This document shows positions 11,179 through 57,166 of a DNA stretch of 64,000 bases, in pieces. A program made the translations under genes and the position numbers. Origin of the DNA: Alistipes sp. (GTDB taxonomy: Bacteria; Bacteroidota; Bacteroidia; Bacteroidales; Rikenellaceae); contig JAFQRH010000006.1 in the NCBI GenBank assembly GCA_017410165.1, forward strand, positions 1 through 64,000, written 5' to 3'. The notes under the pieces are model-generated. The model was not told the DNA's origin. It was given only the letters and a program-made list of their open reading frames with translations, and ran no database searches. Numbering within the stretch: the stretch's first letter is position 1; each line of letters begins with the position of its first letter.

Positions 11179-11340
11179 AGGGGGGGGGGGGCAGTTTGGT
11201 TTTTTTTGGTGGGGGCGTCCAGTTGCGTTTTTTTCGGAGGGCGGCAAAGGCGGATGTGTTGGTGCGACCACTTGTGGCTCTTTCAGGGCGGGGGGGCAAC
11301 GGAAGTTGGGCGAGTGGCGACGCAATCGGTGCGGTGCGAT

Positions 11341-39854: not shown

Positions 39855-40135
39855 TGCTTTAAGGTCGGGTAAGGTCAAGTAAGGTCGGGTAAGGTCAAAT
39901 AAGGTCACGCGCCTTCGGCGGCTTTAAGGTCAGGTAAGGTCGGGTAAGGTCAGGTAAGGTCGGGTAAGGTCAGGTAAGGTCGGGTAAGGTCGGGTAAGGT
40001 CGGGTAAGGTCACGCGCCTTCGGCGGCTTTAAGGTCGGGTAAGGTCGGGTAAGGTCGGGTAAGGTCGGGTAAGGTCAAGTAAGGTCACGCGCCTAAATTC
40101 CCTAAATTCCCTAAACTCTCTAAACTCCCTAAACC
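39855..40135. repeat. Composite GGTC / CCCTAAA array, longest copy
   Basis: More than 15 units of GGTCGGGTAA/GGTCAGGTAA/GGTCAAGTAA with a strict 10-bp period. Two copies of the hairpin spacer CACGCGCCTTCGGCGGC interrupt it. It closes with CACGCGCC, units CCCTAAATT and CCCTAAACT, then poly-C. It fills most of the 450-bp gap between rpmE2 and the first GLUG gene; no gene is visible there. Confidence 0.92.
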
Positions 40136-40153
40136 TCTACCCCCCCCTCCCAC

Positions 40154-40231: not shown

Positions 40232-43200
40232 TTACATTACGCCACCACCACCTGCGAGATTTGCAGTACCCGTGAAGAGTGTGCAAGGGTTAGGACTCGT
40301 AACACCCATCATACCGGTAAAATCAACCATTACCGATTCTGCTGTCAGATTTGTGTAAGGAAGCTTGGTTACGGTCACCTCGTCGAACATATTCTTCTGC
40401 GAGAGAACTACGTAGCCCGACGTAGCGTCGGTTGGCTCAATGGTGTATGCGACCTGAATGTATGGCTGCCACTGTCCTGCCAAAGTCGGATCGTTGTATG
40501 CCGACTCTAAATCAATACCGATGATGAGCATACCGGGAACCGATACGCCGAGGTCAGCGATAACGCGTGCCGGCTGACCGATCATTGCAGTCGAGAGATC
40601 TGCCGGCAATACCCACTGCTTGCCATCGATGCTTGCTGCTACGGCCGCACCAAGTTCGTTACCGTTTACGATAACCTTACCGGTGTTGGTGATGCTTGCC
40701 GTGTCAATGCTCGACTCCTCGGTCTTGTGACCTACGAGAATGTCGATAAACTCGGTGTTGCCTGCATTTACAATAGTAAGTGTACCGCTGTTCGAGCAGT
40801 TCGAAACTACTGCGCCTGCCTTCTTGTTGTCGCCAAGCAGGAGACCTGCGTGGAGAGGTACAGTCGATTGGTACATATCGGCATAGATGTTACCCGAGTT
40901 TGTACAGTTGGTCATATCCTCCTGTTGTGCACCAACTACACCACCGATGTAGAATACGTCGTTAGTTACGAGCGCCTCAGTAACAGTGATGTCAAAGTCG
41001 GCCTCGTTCGAGCAGTTGTCCACACCGTTGTTTGAGAGAGCAACGACACCACCCGTGTAGTTTGCCTTCTTGTTGTTGGTTGTGAACGAAAGCTTCGCAT
41101 CCTTCGTAACCTTACAGTTGCTGATGGTTGCCTGACGCTCGGACGCGGTCTTAATCTGACCTACAATACCTGCAAAACGCAACGAACCTGCCGCGCCATT
41201 AACCTTAACGGTGAGCGGAGCCGAAAGCGTACAACCCTCAATCTTGGTAGTAACATAACCTGCGATACCTGCATTGTAGAGGGCACCACCTGCCTTCGAA
41301 ACGCCGATAACGTCAATCGTTACAGGGCCTGCGCACTCGCAGTTGTAAACACCACCCTTGGTCTCGCCGATGATACCCGACGAATAGTTCTCGTAAGTGT
41401 TGTGCTTGATATTAACCGTACCGTAGTTGTTACAGTTGTAAACATCCCAAGTAGCATAGCCGATAACGCCTGCGTGCCAACCCTTCGTACCACCGCTTAT
41501 CTTACAGTTGTTGTAGATGTTGAGCGTACCGTAGTTGCGGCACTCCTCAATCTTGTAATCGGTATTGTAAACGTTGTAGATACCAACGCAACCAGCAACA
41601 CCACCGAATACCGAACCGCCCTGTGAACCAGCGCCATCAGCGTCCTGTGTACCTGCTGCCCAAACACCCTCAACGAAGAGCTCACCGTAGTTAACACACT
41701 CTTTGAGGTTGAAGATCGTAGCACCTACGATACCACCTGCCGACGGACGAGTACCGCCCAGATTGAGGTCTTCGATTGGGGTAGTGAACGAAACGCGACC
41801 GTAGTTCTCGCAACCAATGATGTCGGCCTGCGAATAACCGATGACACCACCGACGTTACCATAAGTACCGCTGTCGAGTGTCTCGAAACGATACGATACA
41901 TCACCGTAGTTGCGGCAATCCAAGATAGTACCGAGCAGAGTAGCTTCCGACGATTTCGACATCTGCGTACCACCGGCAACACCACCGACACATACCTTCT
42001 TTGGCTGACAAGCGAACAATACGTTCACGTTACCGTAGTTGTGGCACTGCTCAACGAATGCTGTGCCGAGAGCCACCTTGCTACCTGCGTTAGGGTTCAG
42101 ATAACCAACCACACCACCGATGTTCTGGTTGTTGTTCACAGCCGGCGAAGTAACGGTTACGTCACCATAGTTGACACACGACTTCATAGTACCGTACGAC
42201 GTACCGACAATTGTACCGATACGGGTACCAACTGCGCTGATGTCGGTTACGTTCACGTTACCGTGGTTGATACAACCCTCAACGATACCCGGCTCCTCGT
42301 TATCCTCAACGATGAATGCACAGTGCTGGATGCCGGTCTCTACGACGTTGTAGTTGAGTACACACGACTCGTCGATAACGATGTTCTTCACCGTACCCGA
42401 GTTCATATTGATCAGACCGCGAGTGGTTGTCCAATTCTTCAACTTGTAGCCCTGACCATTGAGAATACCCGTAAAGTCAACGGTGGTCGGGGTAAGAGTT
42501 ACGCCCGTGAGGTCGATATCTGCGCCGATGCAAACCTCACCCTCGCCATTAACATAAGCCGTATAGTCGCCGGCGTTTACTGCTGCGAGGAATGCGTTGA
42601 GCTGCTCGGCGTTGCGGATAACGATACCTACCTGCTCTGCACCTACGTAGGTAACCTCCGGCATAGCGAGCATCACGCCACCCTTAATCTCGATACCTGT
42701 GGTTGCATAGGCGGTCTTCTCCATTGCCTTGCCTGCTGCATCCTCGATGGTTACCTTGAAGCCCTTGGCATACGTGCCGGCAGGAACTGCGATGATAACG
42801 GTTGCCTTGCCACCCTCGTAAGGGATGCCGTCTGCACCTGCTACGCGGATATAGTTGCAACCTGCGCTGCACCAAGCATCGTTTGCCTGCGCTCCAACGA
42901 GAACCTCGCCCGAGATAGGTGTGCCGTCCAAAGTTTCGAGAGTTACGCCCTTCAAAGCAACGTCGTCACCCTTGGCGATAACCACCTTAACGAAACCGAA
43001 AGCGTTCTTCATCGAAATCTGGCTGTTCTCCGAGTAACCAATCATAACGGCTACCTTGTCAGCGAACGAGTTAGCGGCATACTTCTGCTCCGGCTCGATA
43101 TAGAGAGCCGCTGCGTGCATACCATTCACTACGAGCGACTCCTTCACTGCATCTACCGGATAAACTACGGTGAACGGTGCCTGAACGCCTGCTACGTTGA

Positions 43201-43465
43201 ATTTTGCGTACTTGCCGCCTACGAACGATGCGTCAACCTCTGCCGACTCAACGCCGTTTACCAATACCTTGTCGCCCTTGGTCCAGAGTACAGGATACTC
43301 CTTACCATCGAACGCGCCGAGTTCTGTACGCGATGCATCTTCAAGCGATACGCCGAGCGTTACCTCGCCCTGCGGAAGCGGCATCACATCCTCTGTCGTG
43401 TCTGTCGAACACGCTGCGGTCAGCATACCCAATGCCAAACCGAGAATCAAATACATCTTTTTCAT
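40232..43465 (-). CDS. GLUG-repeat surface lipoprotein 1
   Basis: 1077 residues. A lipoprotein signal ends in L-T-A-A-C (Cys19). Residues 20-270 resemble the N-terminal domain of fimbrillin-like proteins (DASRTELG...VLWTKGDKVLVNG, ADKVAVMIGYSENSQISMKNAFGFVKV). From about 290 to 950 come many short repeats of the type C-x-N-Y-G-x-V-x-V and GGVVGY, the GLUG motif of parallel beta-helix surface proteins. The last 100 residues (around VLPADLSTAMIGQPARVI to the C-terminus AGGGGVM) form an extra domain missing from the neighbouring paralogue. A role as adhesin or surface scaffold is inferred. A 49-residue ORF lies 30 nt upstream. Confidence 0.85.
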   Translation of the reverse strand: MKKMYLILGLALGMLTAACSTDTTEDVMPLPQGEVTLGVSLEDASRTELGAFDGKEYPVLWTKGDKVLVNGVESAEVDASFVGGKYAKFNVAGVQAPFTVVYPVDAVKESLVVNGMHAAALYIEPEQKYAANSFADKVAVMIGYSENSQISMKNAFGFVKVVIAKGDDVALKGVTLETLDGTPISGEVLVGAQANDAWCSAGCNYIRVAGADGIPYEGGKATVIIAVPAGTYAKGFKVTIEDAAGKAMEKTAYATTGIEIKGGVMLAMPEVTYVGAEQVGIVIRNAEQLNAFLAAVNAGDYTAYVNGEGEVCIGADIDLTGVTLTPTTVDFTGILNGQGYKLKNWTTTRGLINMNSGTVKNIVIDESCVLNYNVVETGIQHCAFIVEDNEEPGIVEGCINHGNVNVTDISAVGTRIGTIVGTSYGTMKSCVNYGDVTVTSPAVNNNQNIGGVVGYLNPNAGSKVALGTAFVEQCHNYGNVNVLFACQPKKVCVGGVAGGTQMSKSSEATLLGTILDCRNYGDVSYRFETLDSGTYGNVGGVIGYSQADIIGCENYGRVSFTTPIEDLNLGGTRPSAGGIVGATIFNLKECVNYGELFVEGVWAAGTQDADGAGSQGGSVFGGVAGCVGIYNVYNTDYKIEECRNYGTLNIYNNCKISGGTKGWHAGVIGYATWDVYNCNNYGTVNIKHNTYENYSSGIIGETKGGVYNCECAGPVTIDVIGVSKAGGALYNAGIAGYVTTKIEGCTLSAPLTVKVNGAAGSLRFAGIVGQIKTASERQATISNCKVTKDAKLSFTTNNKKANYTGGVVALSNNGVDNCSNEADFDITVTEALVTNDVFYIGGVVGAQQEDMTNCTNSGNIYADMYQSTVPLHAGLLLGDNKKAGAVVSNCSNSGTLTIVNAGNTEFIDILVGHKTEESSIDTASITNTGKVIVNGNELGAAVAASIDGKQWVLPADLSTAMIGQPARVIADLGVSVPGMLIIGIDLESAYNDPTLAGQWQPYIQVAYTIEPTDATSGYVVLSQKNMFDEVTVTKLPYTNLTAESVMVDFTGMMGVTSPNPCTLFTGTANLAGGGGVM

Positions 43466-43495: not shown

Positions 43496-43645
43496 TTAAT
43501 AGGTGTCCCAGATACCTCCCTCTTCGGTTACACCTTCGTTCTCTGTGCTCTCCTCGAAGCCCGCCTCGCAGCGAACAGCGATGTTGCGCATTGTTGGAGC
43601 GAGATACTCATTCTCAACCCCGAACTTCAACATTTTTTTGCTCAT
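43496..43645 (-). CDS. Tiny ORF 1 upstream of GLUG lipoprotein 1
   Basis: 49 residues, beginning MSKKMLKFGVENEYLAPTMR and ending EEGGIWDTY. It has no signal peptide. The centre reads Y-L-A-P-T-M-R-N-I-A-V-R-C-E-A-G-F-E-E-S. The core pattern Y-x-x-P, a hydrophobic strand, C-E-x-G-F and a final Trp/Tyr recurs in two other tiny ORFs before giant lipoproteins in this window. It has a good promoter and leader and sits in an operon-like position 30 nt ahead of the lipoprotein. Short ORFs of this general kind are common before surface lipoproteins in Bacteroidales, but I know of no established function. Confidence 0.7.
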   Translation of the reverse strand: MSKKMLKFGVENEYLAPTMRNIAVRCEAGFEESTENEGVTEEGGIWDTY

Positions 43646-43792
43646 AATAGTTGGTTTTAGGTTTTTATTGGTTTTTTATTCAGTTTATTCGGCGTTTTTT
43701 TCGGTTTTTTGCCACTTTTGTTTGCCCTGTTTTGTGCCAATAATCTCGATATTTTTGGGCGCAATACCCTATATAAAGAGAATATTGACTAC

Positions 43793-43824
43793 CAAAGTTA
43801 ATGCAAATCAAAATAAAATCCAAA
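43793..43824 (-). promoter_or_regulatory. Promoter of cassette 1 (tiny ORF plus GLUG lipoprotein 1)
   Basis: On the minus strand TTTG, 20 nt, then TAACTTTG, about 150 nt before the tiny ORF. Confidence 0.65.
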
Positions 43825-43843
43825 AAAAATGAAAAAAATAGTC

Positions 43844-43880
43844 AAAAAAAATCCGTTCGGCACACGCCGAACGGATTTTT
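43844..43880 (-). terminator. Terminator of GLUG lipoprotein 2
   Basis: AAATCCGTTCGGC / GCCGAACGGATTT with a 4-nt loop. T runs occur on both strands, so it could be bidirectional. Confidence 0.9.
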
Positions 43881-43972
43881 CGTTCTTCTCCTCGAAGTCC
43901 CGACCGTAGCCGAAAGCCGACTCTAATCAAGCCCTCGACCGCAATCGAAGCCCCAATCGAAGCCCCTTTCGA

Positions 43973-46900
43973 TTACAACTCGGTGCCGTTGACAACAACC
44001 TTACCGGTGTTGGTCATCGTTGCATCGTCAATCGTACCCTCATTCAGGCCGACCATCAGACCGATATTCTCGGTGTTGCCCGCATTGGTAATGGTCATCG
44101 TACCGCTGTTCGAGCTGTTTTTGGCCGTTGCGTTTTCCGAGTAGTTCATACCGAGCACCGTACCTGCATAGAGTGGCGAGGTCGATTCTGCCATATCGGC
44201 GGTGATTGTGCCGTAGTTGTGGCAGTCGTTCATCGTCACCTTCTGCAAACCTGCTACGCCGGCGATATAGGTGATACCCGTACCGGTCAGCTGCTTGTTT
44301 ATCTCAACCGAGATAGTCGCCTTGTTGGTACAGCCATCAATACCGTTGTTACAGTTGCCGATAATACCGGCTGCGTAGTTTGCCTTGCTGTTCGAGGTCG
44401 AGAGCGTCACCTTTGCGGTCTCCGTTGTCGAGCAGTTGCTGATAACGGTATCCTCGCCTTCTCGCGTTATAATCTGACCTACGATACCTGCGCAACGTAC
44501 CGATGCCTTCGAGTCGTCGGTGTTGAGCGTGTGCGAACCACTCATCGTACAATCCGATACGCTTGTGCGCGAATAGCCGGCAACACCTGCGGTGTAGAGC
44601 GTGCTATAAGCGGTCTTGGTCTTGATATTCGTTGTGTTCGAGCCCGAGTTCGAGCAACCATCAATCACATAACCGTCGCCAACGACACTTGCCGAGTAGA
44701 TGGTAATGCCCGTTACTTCCACACCGTCACAATTGGTCGTAACCGTGCCCGTATTGTGGCAGTCGCTAACGGTCGTGGAGCAATATCCGACAACACCACC
44801 CGCGCGGAAGTTTGCTTTCTCCGCCGTCATACCCATCAGGGTAAGCGAAACGTTGCCGTTGTTGTCACATCTGGTTACGTTGTATGGCGAGTTTCCAACA
44901 ACACCACCAACGTATGTGTTCTTGTTGTAAGTGTTGATATCTACCACACCCTCGTTCGAGCAATCCTCGACTGCCATCTGCGAATAACCGACAACGCCAC
45001 CTTGCGAAGAAGCCGTACCGCCGGTTGCCAGGCAGTAGTATTTGGTGGTAAACTTACCGTAGTTTGTACAACATCTAACTTTCTCTGTCGAATCGGTTAC
45101 ATTGGTAATACCTGCGCAGCCGACAACGCCACCAAACACAGCGCCTGCATACGCGCCGGCACCTGCATTACCGTCGGTACCACCAGCCCATACGCCCTCA
45201 ACATAGACCTCGCCGTAGTTTTCGCAATAGAAAACTGTGTGGGTTGCCGTTGCAACCACACCACCAACACCCGGACGAGTACCGCCTACTGTGCGCTCGC
45301 CTACCGGAACGGTGTACTCTACCTTGCCGTAGTTATAGCAATATTGAATATTCGCTTCGGCATAACCGATAACACCACCAACGTTGCCATACGTACCACC
45401 GGCAAGTTTCTTGAAGTGGTACTTCACGTTACCGAAGTTGTAACAATCCGTAATGCGTCCGTGATTAACCACCTCGGTAGATTTGTGATATGCAGTCGTA
45501 CCCAAGACGCCACCGACATAGACATTCTTCGGCTGAACGGTCTCCGGGAACTCAACGGTTATATTACCATAGTTGGCACAATTAACGAGGAAATCTTTGC
45601 CGAAGTAATCCTTTGGCGAGGCGTTGGTGTTGTAGTAGGCAACAACACCGCCGACCATCAGGTTCTTCGTGAAATCCTTGTTGTTGGTAACCGTGATGTT
45701 GCCATAGTTTCTACAATCTGCAATATAGCCGTAGCCCGCACCGAACAGACCTGCTACGCGGTGAGTACCGTTGTTAATCTCCGAAGCGGTAACGTCGCCG
45801 AAGTTGGTACAGTTGATTGCCTTACCCGTTGGGTTAATCTTCTCGGCAATAAAAGCACACTGCTTGTCGCTGGTGGAGGTCATACTTTCGGTTGCTGCGG
45901 TAAATGTACACGACTTGTCGATAATGATATTCTTCAACGTACCGGTCACGTTGCAGAAGAGTGGGCGGTCGGCCGTCCAATTCTTAATCTTGTAGCCCTT
46001 ACCGTTGAACGTGCCTGCAAAGTCGCCTGCGGTCCACTCCCAATCAACGCCTGTCATATCGATATCGGCACCGAGCACAACCTCGTCCTCGTCATTCAAA
46101 TAAGCCGAGTAGTCGCCCGCCTTGGCTGCTGCGTGGAAAGCCACGAGTTCCGCAGCCGTGCGGATAACGATGCCCTTCTGTGCCTCGCCCTTGTAGGTGA
46201 GTGTCGGCATTGCGAGCACCTCGCCACCCTTCAACGTAACGCCTTCTGTGGTGTAGGCGGTACGCGACATCGCCTTGCCTGTCTTATCCTCGATGGTTAC
46301 CTTGAAACCGTTGTAATACTCACGGGCAGGGACAGCGAAGATTACCTCTGCCACGCCATTGTTGTACGGAATACCATCCTTGCCAACGATATGGATATAG
46401 TCACAACCCGACGCCCAAGATTCTGTATCGCCTGGTGCAACCCACAACTCGCCTGACACCGTAGCTTCACCCAACGATTCGATGGTCACACTGTGCAGAT
46501 CAACATTGTCACCCTTGGCGATTGAAACCTTAATAAAACTGAACAGGTGAGTCAGTGTTATCGGCTGACCTGCCTCCTCGGCAACACCTGCCATAATGGC
46601 AATCTTATCGGCAAACGACTTGTCGGTGTACTCCTGCTCCGATGGCGAATACACCACAAAATAGTCATTTTCAGCATCGTATCCCTTTACCGCCTCTGCC
46701 GGATAGAAAACGTGATAAGGTGCGGTAACATCCTGCACGGTGAATTGTGCCGAACGTGTGCCTACATCTGCCGGTTTAACCTCCGACGAGGTCTTGCCGT
46801 TTACGGACAAGCGGTCGCCCTCCGACCAAACTACCGTATAGCCGCCGGGGATCTCCTCGCCAATCTGTGTACGCGACGAATCGTCGAGCGTCACACCTAA

Positions 46901-47008
46901 TACTACCTCATTTTGTGGTTGAGGCAAAACATCCTGTGTCGTGTCTGTCGAACACGCTGCGGTCAGCATACCCAATGCCAAACCGAGAATCACGTAGAAC
47001 TTTTTCAT
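43973..47008 (-). CDS. GLUG-repeat surface lipoprotein 2
   Basis: 1011 residues, a close paralogue of the neighbouring lipoprotein: the signal region GLALGMLTAACSTDTT is shared almost letter for letter. The same order follows: fimbrillin-like N-terminal region (DDSSRTQIG, TVVWSEGDRLSVNGK), then about 650 residues of C-x-N-Y-G-x-V and GGVVGY repeats. It stops at KVVVNGTEL, exactly where the paralogue continues into its extra C-terminal domain. I start at MKKFYVILG; the ATG 21 nt upstream overlaps the leader. A frameshifted tiny ORF lies 27 nt upstream. The gene is read as part of that cassette and ends at a strong hairpin. Confidence 0.85.
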   Translation of the reverse strand: MKKFYVILGLALGMLTAACSTDTTQDVLPQPQNEVVLGVTLDDSSRTQIGEEIPGGYTVVWSEGDRLSVNGKTSSEVKPADVGTRSAQFTVQDVTAPYHVFYPAEAVKGYDAENDYFVVYSPSEQEYTDKSFADKIAIMAGVAEEAGQPITLTHLFSFIKVSIAKGDNVDLHSVTIESLGEATVSGELWVAPGDTESWASGCDYIHIVGKDGIPYNNGVAEVIFAVPAREYYNGFKVTIEDKTGKAMSRTAYTTEGVTLKGGEVLAMPTLTYKGEAQKGIVIRTAAELVAFHAAAKAGDYSAYLNDEDEVVLGADIDMTGVDWEWTAGDFAGTFNGKGYKIKNWTADRPLFCNVTGTLKNIIIDKSCTFTAATESMTSTSDKQCAFIAEKINPTGKAINCTNFGDVTASEINNGTHRVAGLFGAGYGYIADCRNYGNITVTNNKDFTKNLMVGGVVAYYNTNASPKDYFGKDFLVNCANYGNITVEFPETVQPKNVYVGGVLGTTAYHKSTEVVNHGRITDCYNFGNVKYHFKKLAGGTYGNVGGVIGYAEANIQYCYNYGKVEYTVPVGERTVGGTRPGVGGVVATATHTVFYCENYGEVYVEGVWAGGTDGNAGAGAYAGAVFGGVVGCAGITNVTDSTEKVRCCTNYGKFTTKYYCLATGGTASSQGGVVGYSQMAVEDCSNEGVVDINTYNKNTYVGGVVGNSPYNVTRCDNNGNVSLTLMGMTAEKANFRAGGVVGYCSTTVSDCHNTGTVTTNCDGVEVTGITIYSASVVGDGYVIDGCSNSGSNTTNIKTKTAYSTLYTAGVAGYSRTSVSDCTMSGSHTLNTDDSKASVRCAGIVGQIITREGEDTVISNCSTTETAKVTLSTSNSKANYAAGIIGNCNNGIDGCTNKATISVEINKQLTGTGITYIAGVAGLQKVTMNDCHNYGTITADMAESTSPLYAGTVLGMNYSENATAKNSSNSGTMTITNAGNTENIGLMVGLNEGTIDDATMTNTGKVVVNGTEL

Positions 47009-47035
47009 AATCTTTCCTTTGTTTAGCATTGTTTT

Positions 47036-47189
47036 TTACTGTGCATTAAGTTCATCCCATTCGCCCTCTTTTTCGGTGAGGTCGCCCAATACGGCACTCG
47101 TCTGGAATCCCGCCTCGCAACGTATGTTAATGTTGCGCAGCGTCGGGGTCTGGTACGTTCCCCCCCCCCAATTTCAGCATTGTTTTCAT
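47036..47189 (-). pseudogene. Tiny ORF 2 upstream of GLUG lipoprotein 2, frame broken at a G10 tract
   Basis: From the ATG the frame reads MKTMLKL, enters a run of ten G (47160-47169 as C on the plus strand) and then stops early. Removing one G would give a 50-residue product, continuing TYQTPTLRNINIRCEAGF and ending GEWDELNAQ, which aligns well with tiny ORF 1 (Y-x-x-P-T-x-R-N-I-x-x-R-C-E-A-G-F). So the sequence here is off by one base. The cause could be phase variation by slipped-strand replication, a dead copy, or a sequencing or assembly error in the homopolymer. Confidence 0.65.
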
Positions 47190-47219
47190 AAAAATAGTTA
47201 GTTTAATGTTTTTTATATA

Positions 47220-47400
47220 GTTTGCGTTTTTTTTGCGTTGGTTTTTTGCTATTTGCTTATTTGTTGGTTCGCTATTTTGCGTTTTGTTGGTTTGCTATTT
47301 GCTTATTTGTTGGTTCGCTATTTTGCGTTTTGTTGGTTTGCTATTTTGCTTATTTGTTGTTTGCGTTTTTGCTGTTTGTTTTCTCTGTTTTGCCACCCTC
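47220..47400. repeat. T/G-rich tandem repeat upstream of cassette 2
   Basis: Two copies, with a period of about 48 bp, of GCTATTTGCTTATTTGTTGG, TTCGCTATTTTGCGTTTTG and so on, followed by degenerate copies. On the minus strand this is the A/C-rich leader of cassette 2. A hydrophobic ORF on the plus strand arises only from the repeat. Confidence 0.75.
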
Positions 47401-47515
47401 TACCGTTGAGGATTTAACACATTACCGCAAATTAATTATCAAAAATAGAACAAATCCGAATAAAAACCAAATTTTTTGCCAAAAAGTGCTGATTTATTTG
47501 CATTTCTGCTGTTGA

Positions 47516-47745
47516 GGACGGGTAGGGAGTTTAGGGAATTTAGGGGCGGGTAGGGAGTTTAGAGGGGGTAGGGAATTTAGGGAGTTTAGGGTGAGGGCTG
47601 ACCTTACTTGACCTTACTTGACTTTACTTGACCTTACTCGACTTTACTTGACTTTATCCGACCTTACCCGACCTTACTTTACTTGACCTTAAAGCCGCCA
47701 AAGGCGCGTGACCTTACTTGCCTTACCCGACCTTATTAAAAGCCA
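47516..47745. repeat. Composite array, inverted orientation
   Basis: Reads TAGGGAGTTTAGGGAATTTA units first, then GACCTTACTTGACCTTACCC units, that is, the reverse complement of the arrays near 5.9 and 39.9 kb. It includes the spacer AAAGCCGCCAAAGGCGCGTG. It lies between cassette 2 and the mechanosensitive channel gene. Confidence 0.9.
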
Positions 47746-47902
47746 CTAACGCAACCGCGGAGAAAAAAGCCGAACCTTTTTCTCTTTTTTTATTATAGGT
47801 GTCAGAAGTTGAATCACTCTTATCTTCTTGCATAAAGATAGGATATATTAAGATGGTGTAAAAATCCAATAATCTAAATATTATTTATTGCGATACTTTT
47901 AT

Positions 47903-47910
47903 TACCTTTG
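47903..47910 (+). promoter_or_regulatory. -7 box upstream of the MscS-family gene
   Basis: TACCTTTG, 27 nt before the start codon in AT-rich DNA. The -33 box is not clear. Confidence 0.5.
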
Positions 47911-47937
47911 TACTGACTAACTTAAAAAATACGCCAA

Positions 47938-50352
47938 ATGAAGAGGTTTTTGCACTATTTCATAGTCACATTATTTCTGCTTCTGCACGCAATTCCGGCA
48001 CACGCCGTGCTCAAAGGTTACTCGCTTAACGAGACGGTGATAATGCTCCGTTCGGAGTTGGAGGTTTTTACCCGACAGGTGAATACTATGCACTCCGATT
48101 TTATGAAGGCACGCGATGACTACAAGGCCGAATTGCAGGAGTTTCGCAGGGAGATGGCATCGGCAAAGTTGAGTCTCTTCTCGCAGCAAGAGCAGTATGT
48201 CTTCGGTAATGCCTATGCCTCGGAGGTGGCGAAGCGGTTATGTGACGATTTCTATGGTCGCAATCTGCCGATAGAGCTTTGGAGGACAACCTACGAGCGC
48301 ACTCTGTCGCGCTGCCAGCAATTGCACAAAACCCTCTCCGAAATCGACCCTGCACTGTTGGACGACGGTGCAAGGCATAGCCGCGAGGAGGGTCTTGCGT
48401 ATATTGACCAAGTGGTTGCAAGCATCAACACGTGGCACGACCAGATATTGGACGACCTCGACAAATACAGGGAGTTAGCCGCCGAGGTCGAGGCCCTTCA
48501 ACGCGACATTGACAGCAACTACAACTACATCCTTAACTCGATGCTGCTCACCCCCGACAAGCAACCAACGCACAAGGTGTTCAGCGAGAATTTTGCCTCG
48601 AATTGGAGTTCGTTCAAGAATACCGTTGTGGGCATCTTTGGTGCGTCGCACTACTACGGATGGGAGTTTCAGGATAAGTGGAACGCCGAGGCACTGTTTA
48701 TCATCCTCGCAGGCGTAATTGCGTTTTTTGTAGGCGTTTTATTCGCCATCTTGGCACTATATTGCGGGTGGATAAAGCGGTGGAAACTTATGGAGAACCA
48801 CCCCGCAATATTCTCGATATTCTGCGGCTGGAATGCCGTGACAATCACCTACTTCGTCATCAAGGTTGCCGTCACGTCAAATCCATTCTTTGGCTCGGCA
48901 CTCAATCTCGTTATTGAGTTGTGTCTGATGTACGTAATGCTCAATTTCAGCGTACTTCTTCGTATGAAGAGCGACCAACTCATCCCGACGATTCTCGCCT
49001 ATATGCCTACGGTCGCGCTCTCGGCCATCATCTTCCTCTTCCGTCTGTTGTTGGTGGATATAAATGTCGTGCGAATCGCCTATCCCGTGACGCTGCTCGC
49101 CCTTATCGTGGCACAGATATTCGTCATACTGCGTCTGCACCGAAAACTGTTGCCGCTCGATAGATACGTGAGCATCTTGGCCGTATTGCTCTTCTCGCTG
49201 TGCTTTATGATGAACTTCTGGGGCTACTACTACCTCTCGGTATATGTTGCACTCTCTTGGGCGATATTCATCATCGGACACCTTGTGCTGTCGTGCTTCT
49301 ACAACTATCTCTACCGCGTGGAGCGCAGACGCTTGGTGAAGGACGAAGAGGGCTACCGACACTCGTGGATGCCGTTTACGTTCAAGTGGTTATTCAAGCC
49401 GATGTCGTTGATTTTGGTGCTGTTGGTGTGCACGTTGGAGTGTGTCCACGTCTTCAACATCAACGAGTGGTTTAACGGCGTGTTTGACTACAAGTTCGTG
49501 AACTTCCCCGACATCGTATGCGTCTCGGCAAGGCGCGTGTTCTTCATCGTTATTAGCGCGATACTCACCAACTACTTCGTACACTTGGTGAACCACATAC
49601 TCCGTATTCGCTACCACGAGCGAGCCGACGTGGGAGCCATCAACCTCTCTCGCAACATCTTTGCTATCGTCGTGTGGTGCGTATTCGTGTTGCTGTCGCT
49701 GGCATACATCGAGGTCAACTACATAGGTATATTAGCCACGTTGGGAGGTTTTGCCATAGGTCTTGGTGTGGCGTTGCGCGACACGTTCGACTGCCTGCTC
49801 TGCGGTATTATCCTTATGATGGGCCGCATCAAGATTGGCGACTACGTCGAAATCGGCAATAGTTATCGTGGCAAGGTCATCGATATACAGTACCGCAGCA
49901 CGCTTATCGAGACGGACGACGGAGCCGTTATCTCGGTGTTCAACACGCAGTTCTTCGACAAAGATTTTAGAAATATGAGCTACACGGGCGACTACCAGCG
50001 ACTCCATATCGCATTCCGCGTGCAGAAGGAGATCGACACTGTGAAGGTGCGCGAGATGCTTGCCCAAGCACTTACTGAGAAGGTGCCCGAGATAGCCAAA
50101 CATCCTGCTCCGGTCATCCTTTTCGGGTCGAGCGACAACTACCATATCAATATGATTGCCCAAGTGTGGGTGTCGGTGTACGATTACGACGAGGGAATCT
50201 CGAACGTGAAAGAGACGCTCTTCAACACGCTCTTCGAGCACGGATTGAGAGATATGAGCGTTGAGTCGCGCGTAATCTTCACGAAAGATATTATGGATGT
50301 CAAGGAGGCAGACATATATATCCCAAAGGGCATAAAGAGGGTTGAAGATTAG
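47938..50352 (+). CDS. Large MscS-family mechanosensitive channel
   Basis: 804 residues. A signal peptide (ends AIPAHA) is followed by a periplasmic helical and coiled-coil region to about residue 220 (LNETVIMLRSELEVFTRQVNTM, DKYRELAAEVEALQRDI). About ten membrane helices come next, then the conserved MscS pore helix and beta domain: GILATLGGFAIGLGVALRDTFDCLLCGIILMMG, IKIGDYVEIGNSYRGKVIDIQYRSTLIETDDGAVISVFNTQFF. The size and long periplasmic region resemble MscK or YbdG-type members rather than minimal MscS. It would release solutes under hypo-osmotic shock. It is monocistronic. Confidence 0.92.
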   Translation: MKRFLHYFIVTLFLLLHAIPAHAVLKGYSLNETVIMLRSELEVFTRQVNTMHSDFMKARDDYKAELQEFRREMASAKLSLFSQQEQYVFGNAYASEVAKRLCDDFYGRNLPIELWRTTYERTLSRCQQLHKTLSEIDPALLDDGARHSREEGLAYIDQVVASINTWHDQILDDLDKYRELAAEVEALQRDIDSNYNYILNSMLLTPDKQPTHKVFSENFASNWSSFKNTVVGIFGASHYYGWEFQDKWNAEALFIILAGVIAFFVGVLFAILALYCGWIKRWKLMENHPAIFSIFCGWNAVTITYFVIKVAVTSNPFFGSALNLVIELCLMYVMLNFSVLLRMKSDQLIPTILAYMPTVALSAIIFLFRLLLVDINVVRIAYPVTLLALIVAQIFVILRLHRKLLPLDRYVSILAVLLFSLCFMMNFWGYYYLSVYVALSWAIFIIGHLVLSCFYNYLYRVERRRLVKDEEGYRHSWMPFTFKWLFKPMSLILVLLVCTLECVHVFNINEWFNGVFDYKFVNFPDIVCVSARRVFFIVISAILTNYFVHLVNHILRIRYHERADVGAINLSRNIFAIVVWCVFVLLSLAYIEVNYIGILATLGGFAIGLGVALRDTFDCLLCGIILMMGRIKIGDYVEIGNSYRGKVIDIQYRSTLIETDDGAVISVFNTQFFDKDFRNMSYTGDYQRLHIAFRVQKEIDTVKVREMLAQALTEKVPEIAKHPAPVILFGSSDNYHINMIAQVWVSVYDYDEGISNVKETLFNTLFEHGLRDMSVESRVIFTKDIMDVKEADIYIPKGIKRVED

Positions 50353-50552
50353 CAGTTTAGGGAGTTTAGGGAGTTTAGAGAGTTTAGCGGTCTATGCCTC
50401 TACCATTCCTAAATTCCCTAAACTCCCTAAACTCCTTAAAACCCCTACTCCCTACCACAAAAAAAACCTTACTTGACCTTAAAGCAACCGCAGGTTGCGC
50501 GACCTTATTTGACCTTACCCGACCTTACCCGACCTTACCCGACCTTACCCCA
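50353..50552. repeat. Composite array, mixed orientation
   Basis: TTTAGGGAG units, a spacer, then CCCTAAACT units facing them, so the two TAGGG-type runs form an inverted pair. Then GACCTTAAAGCAACCGCAGG hairpin sequence and about six GACCTTACCC units. The remaining DNA up to the next promoter is A-rich with no gene. Confidence 0.88.
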
Positions 50553-50706
50553 AAAATTCAAAAAAATCGCAAAAATCACACCCCTTTGCGAAAATTTTGC
50601 AAAAACACAGCCGTAAATTCTCAAAAAAAATCGGCAAAAAATCCTCGTCCGAAAAAATATCCCGCAAAATCCGTCTGAATATTTTTGCAAAAAACCGAAT
50701 GCCGGC

Positions 50707-50737
50707 TTTGTTTTTATAAAAACAAATCTTATCTTTG
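50707..50737 (+). promoter_or_regulatory. Promoter of cassette 3 (tiny ORF plus phosphoesterase)
   Basis: TTTG, exactly 19 nt, then TATCTTTG: a full consensus match, 40 nt before the tiny ORF. Confidence 0.82.
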
Positions 50738-50777
50738 CGGTAACTATAACTAACTAAACTAATAACGCTTAACTAAT

Positions 50778-50948
50778 ATGACCAAGATCACGAGAGATCT
50801 TCGATCTCCCTATTTGCCTCCACAGCTCGATGTGGAGGTCTTTGCCACTGAATGTGGTTTTCAAGTAACAGGCAGTATCACAGAATCCAACGGCGGAGGC
50901 GACAACTCCATCGCCGACCCGGATGTCGATTACATCGAGGGTTGGTAG
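50778..50948 (+). CDS. Tiny ORF 3 upstream of the giant phosphoesterase
   Basis: 56 residues starting MTKITRDLRSPYLPPQLDVE and ending DYIEGW. It shows the family pattern Y-L-P-P, a hydrophobic strand, E-C-G-F and a final Trp, with a glycine- and Asp-rich tail. There is no signal peptide. A strong promoter sits just upstream and the giant lipoprotein starts 50 nt downstream, so it is very probably expressed. It is less similar to tiny ORFs 1 and 2 than they are to each other, as are the lipoproteins they precede. Function unknown. Confidence 0.7.
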   Translation: MTKITRDLRSPYLPPQLDVEVFATECGFQVTGSITESNGGGDNSIADPDVDYIEGW

Positions 50949-50998
50949 CCGAATATATGTGTAACTGTGTAATTAACCACTTAAAAACCGCAATCAGA

Positions 50999-53900
50999 AT
51001 GAAAAGAATTTTTACAACCATATTTGCTTTGACGCTCCTTGCGTCTTGTTCGCAGTTCGAGGATATCGACATCATCGTTCAGCCATCCAATCCAAATCTC
51101 GGCAGTGGCCGTCTCTCCGAGTTTACGGCCGCAGACGAGCTCACCAACACCGAGGGCTCGCGTGCGGGTATCGACGAGAATCACACGTCGATTTGGAGCA
51201 ATAACGACAACTTGACGGTCGTGCGTTTCGACTCTTCGACCTCTGCGCCGGTTTTGGTGCATTGTAACTCGCCGGAGAACTCGTTGTCGGAGGACAGAAA
51301 GACCATTTTGTTCAACTGCGAGGAGAACTCGAACGACAACGCGACCGACAACTTTATCTACAAGAGCGGTGTCGAGCAGTACGCCATCTATCCGCAGATG
51401 CCGTCTGCCGAGCCAATCGACTTTTCCGGTGGTAAAGTTGGCAGCCGCATCTTCAAGGTGGATTTGCCTAACCAGACGCTGTATAGCGAGACCGATTTCC
51501 ACTATCCGTTGCTCGTTGGTCGTTGGGATGAGTCGGCAGAGATGTTCCGTTTCAAGAATCCGCTTGCAACCATCAAACTCACACTCAAAGCACCGACCGA
51601 CAAGGTCTATCACCTGCGCTCGATTACCGTTACGGGTCGCAATATGGAGCATATGTGGGGCAAGGCGACCATCACGGCAAACGCTACGGGCGACAGCTCG
51701 GTTGTCTTCGATGACGACGATGCAACGTACTACGCTTCGATGAACTGCTTGCAGACCACCGAGAGCGGCACTTTGGAGGGTTACGAGGTGACCGACGCAG
51801 GTGCCGTATTCTACGTTGCCATTCCGGCACAAACCTACTCGCGCGGTCTGAATATCTCGCTCATCTGCGACGAGGGTGTTATGGACCAGACGCTGAAAAC
51901 GTCGGGCATCACCGTTGCGGCCAACAAGTTGCTCGTGACGCCGACGCTCACGATGGATGTCGATGAGAGTGGCATCTATACCGCGATGTTGCGTTGTACG
52001 GACTCCACAATCGGTATTGCGTGGACCACGCTCGCAACCAACGCCCCTTATCTGAACCAAATCTTCCCGGAGGAGGGTACGCATAACTACAAGAGCGAAA
52101 AGGCCAAGACATACAAAGTCGCACTCTATAAGGATGCTGCTTGCAGCCAGCTGCACGTAAGTTGGATGATGACGGGCAACAAGTTCAAGAATGCCGCTGG
52201 CGATTGGCAGACACTCTTCAACGATGTAACCTACCCACAGCGATTCACCTTCTCGGGTCTTACGCCGAACACGACCTACTACTTTACGGTAACGGCCGAC
52301 GGTGTAACCTCGCGTGCGCGTCAAGTCGCTACGCTTCCGAAGTCGTACACCGGCACGGTGACCTCATCGGGCGCAAAGGCGGGCAACACGATCGTCTATC
52401 AGAACTTTGCCAACCTGATTATGGGTGGCGATATCACTTCGCGCAGCCCGGGCTATTCGAGCTACGTTCGTAACACCTATACCACCGTTGCCCAAGCGAC
52501 CGCAACGGGCGAGACCCCGACACTGAGCAATGCCTCGACAGGCGAATACTCGGAGTTCTACCTATGCGATTCGGGTACGGAGATGGGTCTGTTCAACACA
52601 ATGCACAACTCGATATCGAGTATGGGTTTGAGCAGTTGGTCGTGGTATGCGGAGAGCAACGCCGAGGGTCGCGTCATTGCGCGTGCCGGCTACGTTAAAC
52701 TCGGTACGTCGGACGGCAAGGCGGCTATCGTCACTCCGGCACTGACAGCACTCGGCTCGAATGTGGCAACCGTTACGGTTAAGTTCCGCGCCTGCCCTTA
52801 TGGTGGTGCATCGATGGATCCGGCCGAGGCGGATATCGCTGTTCGTCTGTTGAATGGCGGTACGATTTCGACCTCCGCAAAGCCATATAACCAACTTACC
52901 GGCTACACGGTCGTACAGAGCCACCCGCTGACGTTGGAGGGCAACCAGACCTCGTGGAAGCAGTACGAGGTGACCTTTGCGGGCGCAACCAAAACGTCGC
53001 GTATCGCATTCGACGGCAACCGTCCGGAGTCGGCTATGCCTAACCGCTTTATGATTGACGAGGTGCAGGTAATCGTTAAGTCGCTCGACGGTGTAACGGC
53101 AAGCGTTGTTCGCGCTACCGATACGACTATTGCAGTGGGTTGGACTATTACACCTGCGAATATCCCATATTTGGGCATTGCAAATACAGCGAAAATCACC
53201 TCGTCGGCAGTGACGTTCGCTACTGACATCACAAAAGTTTGGGAGGTAGGTATATACTCGGATGCTGCTTGCACCAAGGCGGTACAGGTGCTGAAAAATG
53301 TCGCTCTTGACCAAAGCAGCAAAGCACTCTATACCGATCTCGCCGGTGGTCTGCCACCACGCTTTACGTTCAATGGTCTGACGCCGGACACCACCTACTA
53401 TGTGATGATTAAGAACGAGACCGACGGTACGCAAATGGGTTCGGCGTTGGAGGTTAAAACCGCGCCATCGGCAGCCGACGCATCGAAGCTTGTAACCGAG
53501 GCGGGCAAAGCCAAGGCGGGCGATTTGATTGTGTTCCAGAACTTTGCCGGAATGACCGCTTTCAGCGATAACACCTCAAAATCTGCAGGTTACTATCTTG
53601 GTGGTCACTCTTCGGCAACCGCACAGCCAATTATCCAAGGTACGGTAACTTGTGGCTCGAACTATTTGAGCCGTAAGGTTAATGGCAATGGTCCTAATTC
53701 GAGTGGTGCAGGTCTCTTCTCGTCGTGGGAGCAGTGTGCCGGGTCGTGCGGCTTCCTCGGTTGGGGATGGTCCGGCTCGGATCTTACACGTGCAGATTAT
53801 ATGGGTATCCAAACCGGTTACCTCCGAGTGGGTGTTAAAACCGCTTATAGTGCTATGCTCTACTCGCCACAACTCTCGGCTCTGCCGGGCAAGGCGACCG

Positions 53901-56900
53901 TACGTGTTACATTCCGTGCAGCACCTTATGGCGACCCTACAAAACCTATATCGACAGACGACCACCGCGAGATAAAGGTTGTGGCAATTGATGGCACAAC
54001 GATTACCAATTACAGTGGCGATATGGACGCAGTGAATAACTATTTAGTTTCAGGTGGAACGGTTGTTGACTCAGAAGTTATTGCGTTCGATGCCGACCAA
54101 GCGGTCACCGATTGGAAGGAATATACGGTCGATTTGGTCGATGTAGGTCCGACCGCCCGTATCGGTATCGGCGGTAACTCCTCTACAAAAGCAAGCCGCT
54201 TCTTTGTGGATGATATCCGCGTAGAGGTGCTCTCTATCTCGAACGGCATCTGGACGGGTTTGGTACGTGCAACCGACACCACGCTGAATCTCGGTTGGAC
54301 CATCACCGAGGGCAACAAGACCAACGACTACTACCTCTCGCTCTTCCCGAACGACCCTGCAAAGAATGCTCTCGACCACAACGGCTACGATAAGGAGAAC
54401 TACACCGTCTATCTCTACAAGGATGCTGCTTGCACCGAATTGGAGTTCCAAGCAGACTACGGTGGCGCATTCTTCCGCGAAGGTAGCGAGGGTGCATACT
54501 CATACTTCCCGTGCCGTGTCATCTTCGGCGGTTTGGAGCCGGAGGCAACCTACTACTTCCGCGTGAAGGATAAGGTGACGGGCAAGATTACCGACCCGGT
54601 TCCGTACTCGACGTTAGCGAAGGAGTATGATGGCGAAGAGATGACCGTTGCGGGCAAGGCGGCGGTTGGCGACGTGCTCGTATTCGAGAACTTCGGCAAG
54701 GTGCTCTACACGGGCGACTTTGCAAACTACGCTGCGGGTTACACCCGTTCGGCATTGAGCAGCGCACAGGTAAACTGCAAGGCAGAGGGCAAGGTATCGT
54801 GGTCGGCACAGACCATCGACGGCGAGAGTGTCGATTTCGGTCGTTGCGACGCCAACACCGAGAGTGCGCTCTTCTCCACTTGTAACGGTCTGCTCGACGA
54901 TATGGGTCTCGACGATTGGGGCTACATCTCGACCGACTCTTTGAGCCGCGTATTTGTCAAGCCGGGCTACTTGAAGATTGGCGGTAGCAGCCAGCTCGCA
55001 TCCATCGTAACCCCGAAATTGGTAGGTCTTTCATCCTCGACGCTCTCGCAGGTAACCGTTTCGTTCAAGGCCTGCAAACTCTCGACGCAGAACTACAACA
55101 ACTCCGTAAACGAGGACTACGTTGTCGTTCGCGGTATCAACGGCTCGTCGATTAAGCCGCTGACCGACGCGACGATGCCGGGCTACGTCTATGGTGGCTA
55201 CGATAGCGACGCTGTGAATGTCACACTCAATTCGGCACTCGGCGAGTGGAAGGAGTACTCCGTAACAATCGACGGCGTCACAGCCGACTCGCGTATCGCC
55301 ATCGGCGGTAACCGTCCGTCGGCAGGTAACTCGCGATTCTACATCGACGACATCAAGGTTACGGTCAAGAAGGTCGGCATCACCGTCATCACGGGTAAGG
55401 TGTCGTATGGTGGCTCGGGTGTTGCGGGTGTTGCCGTAACCGATGGCTACACTACGGTATTGACCGATGCCAACGGTAACTACAAGATTCCGTACACCAA
55501 GGCACCGGAGTACATATATTATAGTACGCCACACAACCACGAGATTGGCCGTGCAGGTACGGGTGTTCCGGTGCAGTATATCAAATACACCTCCGGTACA
55601 AATACGGGCTACAACTTCACGCTCGGCGCGAAGATGACCTCCGCAACCCACGCCAACTTCAACGATGCGAAGGATAAGTTCGACAAGTGGTTCCTCTTCG
55701 TTATGGCCGACCCACAGACGCACAACAACTCGGAGGATAACTGCTACAAACGTTTCTGCGATGTGGCTGTGCCGGATATTCGCGCACAGGTCGATCGTGG
55801 CTATAACAGTGCTTGCAATTCGAGCTCTGGCGCAAATCAGGCGTACGGCGTTCTGCTTGGCGACGTTGTTTGGGACTCGTCCGACGACGATTACCACAGC
55901 ACAATGAAGGCGAAGTTGGAGGTTGGCGACACGGGCGTATATTGGTTTGCCTGCCCGGGTAACCACGACTACAATTACAGTTCGCGTTCGATTACCGGTT
56001 TTAAGAATATCTATGGCCCTACGCGCCACTCGTTCAACCGTGGCGATGTGCACGTCGTATGTATGAACAACGTGCAGTACACCTCCAAGACCTCTTACGA
56101 GGGCGGTTTCTCGGCGGACGAGTTCAACTGGTTGCGTTCGGATTTGGCTGCCGTAAGCAAGGATAAGTGCGTGGTATTGTGTTGCCACATCCAATTCTTC
56201 AGTGGTGGTTCAGGTACCCACCTCAAATCACGCTACCACGACGAGGTGCTTGCCGAGTTGAGCAAGTTTGCCAACGCATACATCTTCACGGGCCACCGCC
56301 ACAACCACCGTTCGTACTACCACAAGAACTACGGCGTATTCGAGGTGAACCACCCTGCTGCGTGCGGTCAGTTCTGGAATACGAAGTGCTGCTCGGATGG
56401 CTCGCCTGCCGGCTACACCATCTACACGTTCAGCGGCAACAACATCGCCCACCAGCGTTACAAGGCCTTCGGCACCAACGGCTCGGGCGACGTTACGGTT
56501 ACGTCGCGCAACAGCACCGAGAACGGTCTGCGCGTATATTGGGCTGCCGACAATATCTCCAACACAGCGAACCAAATCGACGTTTACACGTGGGGTGTAA
56601 CCAATACGAAGGTGATTATCGCCAACGTATTCCTTGCTCACCAGCAAGGCGGTCCTGCCGGCACTATCGCGGGCGACTGGAAGGTGCAACTCTCGGAGGA
56701 CTCGGGCAAGACGTGGAAGACAATGGACCTCGTCGATGCTACATTCTTCCGTCACGGTATTCCGAACGGTCTGAACGGTTTCACATCCGGCGACGATTTC
56801 AGTTACAAGACCTATATCGTCGATGCTGCGGGTAACAATATGAACAGCACCAAGTATGACGGCACACCAGCAGGTGTACGTGGCGATATCGACTGGTGGT

Positions 56901-57166
56901 ATTGGGGTAAGTGTCTCGAAAAGAACAATAACTCCATCATTAACCGTAACGGAAACGAGTTGGGTAATGCGTGGAACTACGCCAACACCTCGACGCATAT
57001 CTTCCGTGGATCGGTCAGCACGGCATACGCTTCGCGTTCGGCAGTCGATGCTGATATCAAGAGCGGTAAGTTGGTCATCAAGGCAACCTCGCCGACGGGT
57101 ATCGTCTATAAGGCGAACTGTCTGACCTACTTCGACGTTAGCAACGACAGCAACTTGCAGTGGTAG
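50999..57166 (+). CDS. Giant multidomain lipoprotein with calcineurin-like phosphoesterase
   Basis: 2055 residues. A lipoprotein signal ends L-A-S-C. Residues about 25-320 form a fimbrillin-like domain. Three repeated modules of about 375 residues begin near 323, 697 and 1081; each opens V-R-x-T-D-T-T-I-x-x-x-W-T, has an Fn3-like sandwich (TPNTTYYFTV, DTTYYVMI), and then a jelly-roll-like half (GNTIVYQNFANL, GDLIVFQNFAGM, GDVLVFENFGKV). A small CNA-B-like domain near 1464 (GVAGVAVTDGYTTVLTDANG) leads into the metallophosphatase: MADPQTH, LLGDVVWDSSDDD, PGNHDYNY, CCHIQFF, FTGHRHNH. A calcineurin-specific C-terminal domain ends the protein. It is probably surface-exposed, the modules perhaps binding glycans. 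The start was chosen at the signal peptide. Confidence 0.88.
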   Translation: MKRIFTTIFALTLLASCSQFEDIDIIVQPSNPNLGSGRLSEFTAADELTNTEGSRAGIDENHTSIWSNNDNLTVVRFDSSTSAPVLVHCNSPENSLSEDRKTILFNCEENSNDNATDNFIYKSGVEQYAIYPQMPSAEPIDFSGGKVGSRIFKVDLPNQTLYSETDFHYPLLVGRWDESAEMFRFKNPLATIKLTLKAPTDKVYHLRSITVTGRNMEHMWGKATITANATGDSSVVFDDDDATYYASMNCLQTTESGTLEGYEVTDAGAVFYVAIPAQTYSRGLNISLICDEGVMDQTLKTSGITVAANKLLVTPTLTMDVDESGIYTAMLRCTDSTIGIAWTTLATNAPYLNQIFPEEGTHNYKSEKAKTYKVALYKDAACSQLHVSWMMTGNKFKNAAGDWQTLFNDVTYPQRFTFSGLTPNTTYYFTVTADGVTSRARQVATLPKSYTGTVTSSGAKAGNTIVYQNFANLIMGGDITSRSPGYSSYVRNTYTTVAQATATGETPTLSNASTGEYSEFYLCDSGTEMGLFNTMHNSISSMGLSSWSWYAESNAEGRVIARAGYVKLGTSDGKAAIVTPALTALGSNVATVTVKFRACPYGGASMDPAEADIAVRLLNGGTISTSAKPYNQLTGYTVVQSHPLTLEGNQTSWKQYEVTFAGATKTSRIAFDGNRPESAMPNRFMIDEVQVIVKSLDGVTASVVRATDTTIAVGWTITPANIPYLGIANTAKITSSAVTFATDITKVWEVGIYSDAACTKAVQVLKNVALDQSSKALYTDLAGGLPPRFTFNGLTPDTTYYVMIKNETDGTQMGSALEVKTAPSAADASKLVTEAGKAKAGDLIVFQNFAGMTAFSDNTSKSAGYYLGGHSSATAQPIIQGTVTCGSNYLSRKVNGNGPNSSGAGLFSSWEQCAGSCGFLGWGWSGSDLTRADYMGIQTGYLRVGVKTAYSAMLYSPQLSALPGKATVRVTFRAAPYGDPTKPISTDDHREIKVVAIDGTTITNYSGDMDAVNNYLVSGGTVVDSEVIAFDADQAVTDWKEYTVDLVDVGPTARIGIGGNSSTKASRFFVDDIRVEVLSISNGIWTGLVRATDTTLNLGWTITEGNKTNDYYLSLFPNDPAKNALDHNGYDKENYTVYLYKDAACTELEFQADYGGAFFREGSEGAYSYFPCRVIFGGLEPEATYYFRVKDKVTGKITDPVPYSTLAKEYDGEEMTVAGKAAVGDVLVFENFGKVLYTGDFANYAAGYTRSALSSAQVNCKAEGKVSWSAQTIDGESVDFGRCDANTESALFSTCNGLLDDMGLDDWGYISTDSLSRVFVKPGYLKIGGSSQLASIVTPKLVGLSSSTLSQVTVSFKACKLSTQNYNNSVNEDYVVVRGINGSSIKPLTDATMPGYVYGGYDSDAVNVTLNSALGEWKEYSVTIDGVTADSRIAIGGNRPSAGNSRFYIDDIKVTVKKVGITVITGKVSYGGSGVAGVAVTDGYTTVLTDANGNYKIPYTKAPEYIYYSTPHNHEIGRAGTGVPVQYIKYTSGTNTGYNFTLGAKMTSATHANFNDAKDKFDKWFLFVMADPQTHNNSEDNCYKRFCDVAVPDIRAQVDRGYNSACNSSSGANQAYGVLLGDVVWDSSDDDYHSTMKAKLEVGDTGVYWFACPGNHDYNYSSRSITGFKNIYGPTRHSFNRGDVHVVCMNNVQYTSKTSYEGGFSADEFNWLRSDLAAVSKDKCVVLCCHIQFFSGGSGTHLKSRYHDEVLAELSKFANAYIFTGHRHNHRSYYHKNYGVFEVNHPAACGQFWNTKCCSDGSPAGYTIYTFSGNNIAHQRYKAFGTNGSGDVTVTSRNSTENGLRVYWAADNISNTANQIDVYTWGVTNTKVIIANVFLAHQQGGPAGTIAGDWKVQLSEDSGKTWKTMDLVDATFFRHGIPNGLNGFTSGDDFSYKTYIVDAAGNNMNSTKYDGTPAGVRGDIDWWYWGKCLEKNNNSIINRNGNELGNAWNYANTSTHIFRGSVSTAYASRSAVDADIKSGKLVIKATSPTGIVYKANCLTYFDVSNDSNLQW

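Follow-up and report, generated by a model that had tools for sequence, protein, structure and literature searches.

Tiny genes before giant surface lipoproteins in Alistipes as candidate RiPP precursors, some with a probable poly-G switch

The leaders of lasso peptides and of linear polyphosphorylated peptides (LPP) share a motif, [Y/W]xxPx[L/V/I/F/A], that is bound by a RiPP recognition element (RRE; RiPP, ribosomally synthesized and post-translationally modified peptide) (PMC13381572). The LPP gene set, published for Bacillota together with its YxxP leader, comprises an RRE, an HprK-like kinase, a nucleotidyltransferase, an SpI peptidase and an MsbA-like exporter; in that pathway Ser3 of the core is the residue phosphorylated by the kinase, and the leader is cleaved off by the peptidase, which the RRE assists (PMC13381572). 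The phase variation known from Bacteroidales relies mostly on DNA inversion (PMC11868660). Here we analyze three cassettes, each a tiny open reading frame (ORF) followed by a giant lipoprotein gene, in a 64 000-nucleotide stretch of Alistipes sp. (GCA_017410165.1, contig JAFQRH010000006.1, positions 1 to 64 000; hereafter the window). The tiny ORFs belong to a family that is firmly paired with surface lipoproteins and whose best-supported function, judged from sequence, is that of RiPP precursor; some members carry a poly-G tract that is likely to switch them on and off.

A first-pass annotation of the window had noted the three cassettes and proposed a profile search with the tiny peptides. 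The hidden Markov model (HMM) built from these three peptides matched 76 of 101 genomes of the genus, and homologues stand at the same position in many relatives. With a 47-sequence profile, 21 family members were counted in the host's own genome. Matches fall within the order Bacteroidales, mostly in the host's own family (Rikenellaceae), and the named relatives that have them are herbivore-gut Alistipes or Rikenellaceae metagenome-assembled genomes. A lipoprotein gene lies no more than 80 nt 3′ of the tiny ORF in 136 of 150 distinct loci, several of the remaining 14 being contig edges or misses by our strict lipobox rule; for control ORFs of 30-70 aa outside the family the figure is 5 of 736. 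A chance origin of the cassettes is excluded by the number of genomes matched and by this pairing relative to controls. The layout is that of a two-gene operon, with a median of 24 nt between the tiny stop codon and the lipoprotein ATG and with promoters found upstream of the tiny ORF at 34 of 137 loci, versus 3 of 136 inside it.

The tiny peptides are, by the substitution pattern, under purifying selection: dN/dS is not near 1, pooled nonsynonymous differences (pN 0.20) being well under synonymous ones (pS 0.58), a ratio that is indicative, the 59 pairs having been picked as related. The family consensus is Y-x-x-P-x(9)-E-x-G-F-A-x-S, followed by an acidic tail with Trp. Y and P are correctly placed in about 119 of 122-123 aligned peptides, with mostly L, V, I or M at +5, so that the family carries the leader motif described above. 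The distance from Y to E is 13 residues at 143 of 150 loci, and Ser occupies the A-x-S position in 114 of about 122 peptides. By analogy with LppA, from which the core numbering is taken, this conserved Ser may be the phospho-acceptor. The C-terminal tails are variable (30% D/E, Trp in 77%) and nearly devoid of Cys and K/R.

We searched 180 genomes of the genus for a PqqD-type RRE. Among the 71 that were at least 90% complete and had been scanned with the tiny-peptide profile, an RRE was found in all 55 tiny-positive and in none of the 16 tiny-negative genomes, counts that ignore the kinship of the genomes; when the weaker three-peptide HMM was used and incomplete genomes were included, the figures became 74/76 and 8/25. 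The RRE of the host's own genome lies at C25:63741-63953 (E = 9e-13). In certain genomes the cassettes adjoin further maturation genes. An RRE, an MsbA-like ABC transporter, an HprK-like kinase and an SpI peptidase are next to a tiny ORF and its lipoprotein in one (G794). A second (G008) has an RRE, a nucleotidyltransferase, an HprK-like kinase and a Wza-like lipoprotein of polysaccharide export, then a tiny ORF (a weak match, E = 0.01) and its lipoprotein. A third, from another family (G451), has a cluster of nucleotidyltransferase, HprK-like kinase, tiny ORF, lipoprotein and SpI peptidase. All three sets are partial, and the kinase and peptidase assignments have modest E-values under the family cut-offs. 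The first-pass annotation had offered four functions without choosing; of these a RiPP-like precursor is the one that we favor because of the leader motif, the RRE co-occurrence and the linkage elsewhere to kinase, nucleotidyltransferase, peptidase and exporter genes. A further PqqD gene was seen at L390 (G796:C3), among ORFs judged by eye to encode a radical SAM protein and a nucleotidyltransferase, with a weak HprK-like match (2.9e-5); this is possibly a further RiPP cluster.

Some members of the family contain a homopolymer in their leader part. A pattern search of the 180 genomes for runs of G8 or more between the ATG and the Y codon gave 40 matches in 28 genomes (some places were matched twice), while the backward control gave none. 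Of the 42 distinct tiny ORFs with a tract that we read, 33 were in frame and nine out of frame; with L047 (G11), also out of frame, the total is 43 loci, 33 on and 10 off, with tracts of G8-G11 directly 5′ of the Y codon. Random tract lengths would leave one-third in frame (P = 7e-9), and a broken frame is far rarer without a tract (2/134 versus 10/43, P = 1e-5). The nine out-of-frame loci that were read yield products of 10-23 codons, and wherever sequence was available at the out-of-frame loci, the conserved part and the lipoprotein were still open. Runs of G8 or more reach 3.5/kb in the N-terminal part of the precursors versus 0.03/kb in the DNA 260-1000 nt upstream (about 100-fold), and there are none in the C-terminal parts of the precursors (16 kb) or at the 5′ ends of the lipoprotein genes (126 kb). 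Since the tract is translated in more than one codon register, it is not merely a product of selection for glycine. At two related loci (G829 and G831, 93% identity over 658 nt) the tiny ORFs have one G as their sole indel, G9 being off and G8 on. Because of this single-G difference and the 33 on and 10 off states, the tract likely gives slipped-strand phase variation.

Further observations were made on these tracts. The G829 and G831 loci (L279/L280) are identical over a stretch that begins shortly 3′ of the poly-G and extends into the signal sequence of the lipoprotein, and differ by several percent in the flanks, suggesting recent exchange or strong constraint. Of the 33 runs of G9 or more in the host's own genome, six are in or just upstream of cassettes. 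One of these six, a G10 run (L122, G000:C25:55292), is located in a cassette promoter, in the 20 nt that separate TTTG from TATATTTG, possibly a transcriptional phase switch. A G9 run (L220, G000:C1:34354) lies inside a 256-aa ORF that looks by eye like a LytTR-type regulator, which would possibly be phase variable. The window also has an intergenic G12 run at 11180-11191, about 290 nt 5′ of the next ORF at 11480.

We propose that each cassette is a two-gene operon whose first gene would encode a precursor of about 45 aa that lacks a signal peptide. The leader, bound in trans by the one PqqD-type RRE encoded elsewhere, would be the N-terminal half of this precursor (Y-x-x-P-x-[LIV]...E-x-G-F), and the acidic, Trp-containing C-terminal half, from around A-x-S, would be the core that is modified and exported. 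If the closest pathway, LPP, is a guide, an HprK-like kinase would phosphorylate the conserved Ser and an archaeal-type signal peptidase would then remove the leader. The product of the second gene would be a giant lipoprotein, fimbrillin-like in its N-terminal domain, of which the peptide is presumably a partner on the cell surface. Where a precursor carries a poly-G tract in its leader, slipped-strand mispairing would change the length of the tract and thereby turn the precursor on or off; the second cassette of the window would be in the off state. Binding, phosphorylation, cleavage, export, switching in cells and action on the lipoprotein are all predictions from sequence, and we consider the proposal as a whole somewhat more probable than its negation.

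Several points weigh against it, the unaccounted kinship behind the RRE counts among them. In most genomes of the genus that were read, the single RRE is in a TonB-receptor/heavy-metal operon, away from maturation genes. Named NCBIfam models fit the RRE and the kinase only weakly. No HprK-like kinase, nucleotidyltransferase or SpI peptidase was found in the 0.65 Mb, a third of the host's own genome, that was read. Searches of Pfam, NCBIfam, PHROGs, PADLOC and the sequences of the PDB gave no useful match to the tiny peptides, what matches there were being single and weak (paeninodin, E = 0.014). Tract states were read from assemblies, mostly metagenomic, in which variation within a strain is not visible. 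As to the surroundings of the RRE, the single PqqD gene of the genus (L368-L387) is conserved beside recQ, a small His/Cys-rich protein, a TonB receptor and an HMA protein. A literature search found no paper that treats these tiny ORFs; in a study that mined Bacteroidales for RiPPs (PMC10352776), 'PqqD' occurs once, 'lipoprotein' and 'fimbri' not at all.

The tiny protein could alternatively be an unmodified cytoplasmic chaperone or export pilot, with the RRE-like protein an unrelated marker of the lineage. Pairing with secreted surface proteins is near-constant and extends in another family to a cargo of the type IX secretion system (T9SS) with Por_Secre_tail, as a chaperone or pilot would have it, and the lack of maturation genes in the third of the host's genome that was read also agrees. 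However, AlphaFold gives the tiny peptide no globular fold (pLDDT 69.6, pTM 0.24), its motif is the published RRE-binding one, and RRE, kinase and peptidase genes are linked to it in G794, G008 and G451. Nor do peptide tails and lipoproteins co-vary beyond shared ancestry: a correlation present in redundant data, which we had considered as co-evolution, was gone in the non-redundant set. We regard this alternative as unlikely.

Slightly less likely still is a cis-acting leader, in which translation of the tiny ORF controls the lipoprotein, the poly-G tract switches by polarity and the peptide itself has no function. The short gap, the promoters 5′ of the tiny ORF and the somewhat more structured lipoprotein start (minimum free energy -5.8, versus -3.4 at the tiny ORF start) all suit such a leader. 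Conservation, however, is at the amino-acid level and the motif spacing rigid, and the RRE co-occurs exactly. Weak initiation at the lipoprotein, tried as support for coupling, was unsupported: the region 5′ of its start is A-rich and the start is not more structured than those of control genes. A leader or attenuator should always be upstream, but members of other Bacteroidales families (G509 at two loci, G674 and G781) have the reversed order: there the tiny gene follows a large secreted protein at a distance of 16-75 nt, and in one case that protein is a C10 peptidase whose T9SS sorting domain scores above the cut-off. A purely cis-acting translational regulator, also among the functions first offered, is disfavored because of these downstream tiny genes; a protein product acting with surface proteins fits both orders. 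Finally, it is very improbable that the frameshifts are assembly errors and the cassettes not phase variable: homopolymers are error-prone and our genomes are mostly metagenome assemblies, but the tracts cluster in one small region of one gene family, fall in frame far above random, use more than one register and leave the lipoprotein intact wherever it can be read.

Coordinates of the window cassettes are given in Table 1.

Table 1. Positions of the cassette features within the window
Feature	Position	Strand	Remarks
Promoter 5′ of tiny ORF 1	43793..43823	minus	Bacteroidota-type, TTG-N20-TAACTTTG
Tiny ORF 1	43496..43645	minus	49 aa, intact; putative RRE-recognized precursor peptide
Conserved core of tiny ORF 1	43547..43606	minus	Y14-x-x-P ... 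E-x-G-F-x-x-S33; candidate RRE-type leader motif and candidate phospho-acceptor Ser S33 (family alignments, position counts, PMC13381572)
Lipoprotein 1	40232..43465	minus	1077 aa; signal peptide and lipobox, predicted fimbrillin-fold N-terminal domain, GLUG repeat region
Tiny ORF 2	47036..47189	minus	Broken frame; ATG at 47189, family-like frame stops at 47036-47038
G10 homopolymer in tiny ORF 2	47160..47169	minus	Directly 5′ of Y codon
Lipoprotein 2	43973..47008	minus	1011 aa; N-terminal domain homologous to that of lipoprotein 1
Promoter 5′ of tiny ORF 3	50708..50737	plus	Bacteroidota-type, TTG-N19-TATCTTTG
Tiny ORF 3	50778..50948	plus	56 aa, intact
Lipoprotein 3	50999..57166	plus	2055 aa; fimbrillin-like N-terminal domain, FN3-like modules, calcineurin-like phosphoesterase (MetallophosN/C)

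The first-pass description of three tiny-ORF/lipoprotein cassettes holds for cassettes 1 and 3, whose tiny ORFs have no signal peptide and are followed by the lipoprotein after 30 and 50 nt, respectively, and for which the promoters it had called clear were both found. It had missed that tiny ORF 2 is not intact, because the G10 run shifts the frame just before the conserved core. From its ATG this ORF reads MKTMLKLGGGNVPDPDAAQH*, only 20 aa, and the family-like sequence TYQTPTLRNINIRCEAGFQTS... is in a different frame, which G9 or G12 in place of G10 would join to the ATG. No promoter was found in a search 5′ of tiny ORF 2. From the Y codon on, cassette 2 is 92% identical to a relative (L104 in G094); the alignment ends at the poly-G, and the DNA 5′ of the tract is unalignable, resembling a recombination junction at the tract. 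Degenerate CCCTAAACTC-type repeats occur in intergenic DNA around the cassettes (window 50340-50560, 47510-47560 and 40110-40150).

That the lipoproteins share a fimbrillin-fold N-terminal domain, as first proposed, is confirmed for all three by profile search and for lipoprotein 1 also by a modeled fold. A jackhmmer search from lipoprotein 1 gathered 136 of 139 cassette lipoproteins, that of cassette 3 at 4.6e-49. They combine a lipobox with an N-terminal fold of the FimA/Mfa type, as modeled for lipoprotein 1 (AlphaFold2 pLDDT 83.3); the best structural matches of this model, at Z near 13, are fimbrial and cell-adhesion proteins of Bacteroides (VIA-align, 13.1 to 3t2l and 12.7 to 3sy6). The C-terminal parts diverge, with GLUG repeats in lipoprotein 1 and weakly in lipoprotein 2, and the phosphoesterase in lipoprotein 3. 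A PF13149 search of the three window lipoproteins gave no match at E ≤ 1; in the host's own genome three of the five PF13149 matches are directly 3′ of tiny ORFs.

A testable function is thus offered for unannotated tiny genes that precede surface lipoproteins. The proposal would extend YxxP/LPP-type RiPPs into Bacteroidales and tie RiPPs to surface display, and would make poly-G slippage, not DNA inversion, the likely switch in an abundant gut lineage. A broader picture, to which we give a little less than an even chance, is a dispersed Bacteroidales RiPP system of many phase-variable precursors, each with its own lipoprotein and all served by one RRE in trans, allowing switchable combinations of displayed products.

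Among known systems, the lipoproteins resemble fimbrillins and type V pilin-like proteins (PF13149, FimA, Mfa) in lipobox and N-terminal beta-sandwich fold, but their C-terminal extensions (GLUG repeats, phosphoesterase) are very long. The tracts resemble the poly-G contingency loci of Campylobacter, Neisseria and Treponema in that a G run lies in the promoter or in the 5′ portion of the coding sequence and that frames are on or off among relatives, while differing in that it is the tiny gene upstream, and not the gene of the surface protein, that holds the tract. Lasso systems share the YxxPx[LVI] leader motif, and lasso RREs are among the best NCBIfam relatives of our PqqD-like proteins, but those matches are far under the cut-offs, and in the neighborhoods read, with no genome-wide search made, we found no B2-type peptidase or cyclase. 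Closest are the LPP systems of Bacillota, with precursors of 35-200 aa, a YxxP leader, a conserved Ser early in the core, a variable C-terminus and a discrete RRE (PMC13381572), and some Bacteroidales genomes carry parts of the LPP gene set, partly inside polysaccharide loci. The present family differs from LPP in its leader, E-x-G-F-A-x-S instead of F-E-T-x-x-S, in having many precursors scattered over a genome, each of them 5′ of a surface-lipoprotein gene, in an RRE that would serve them in trans, often from a site away from maturation genes, and in its probable poly-G switch.

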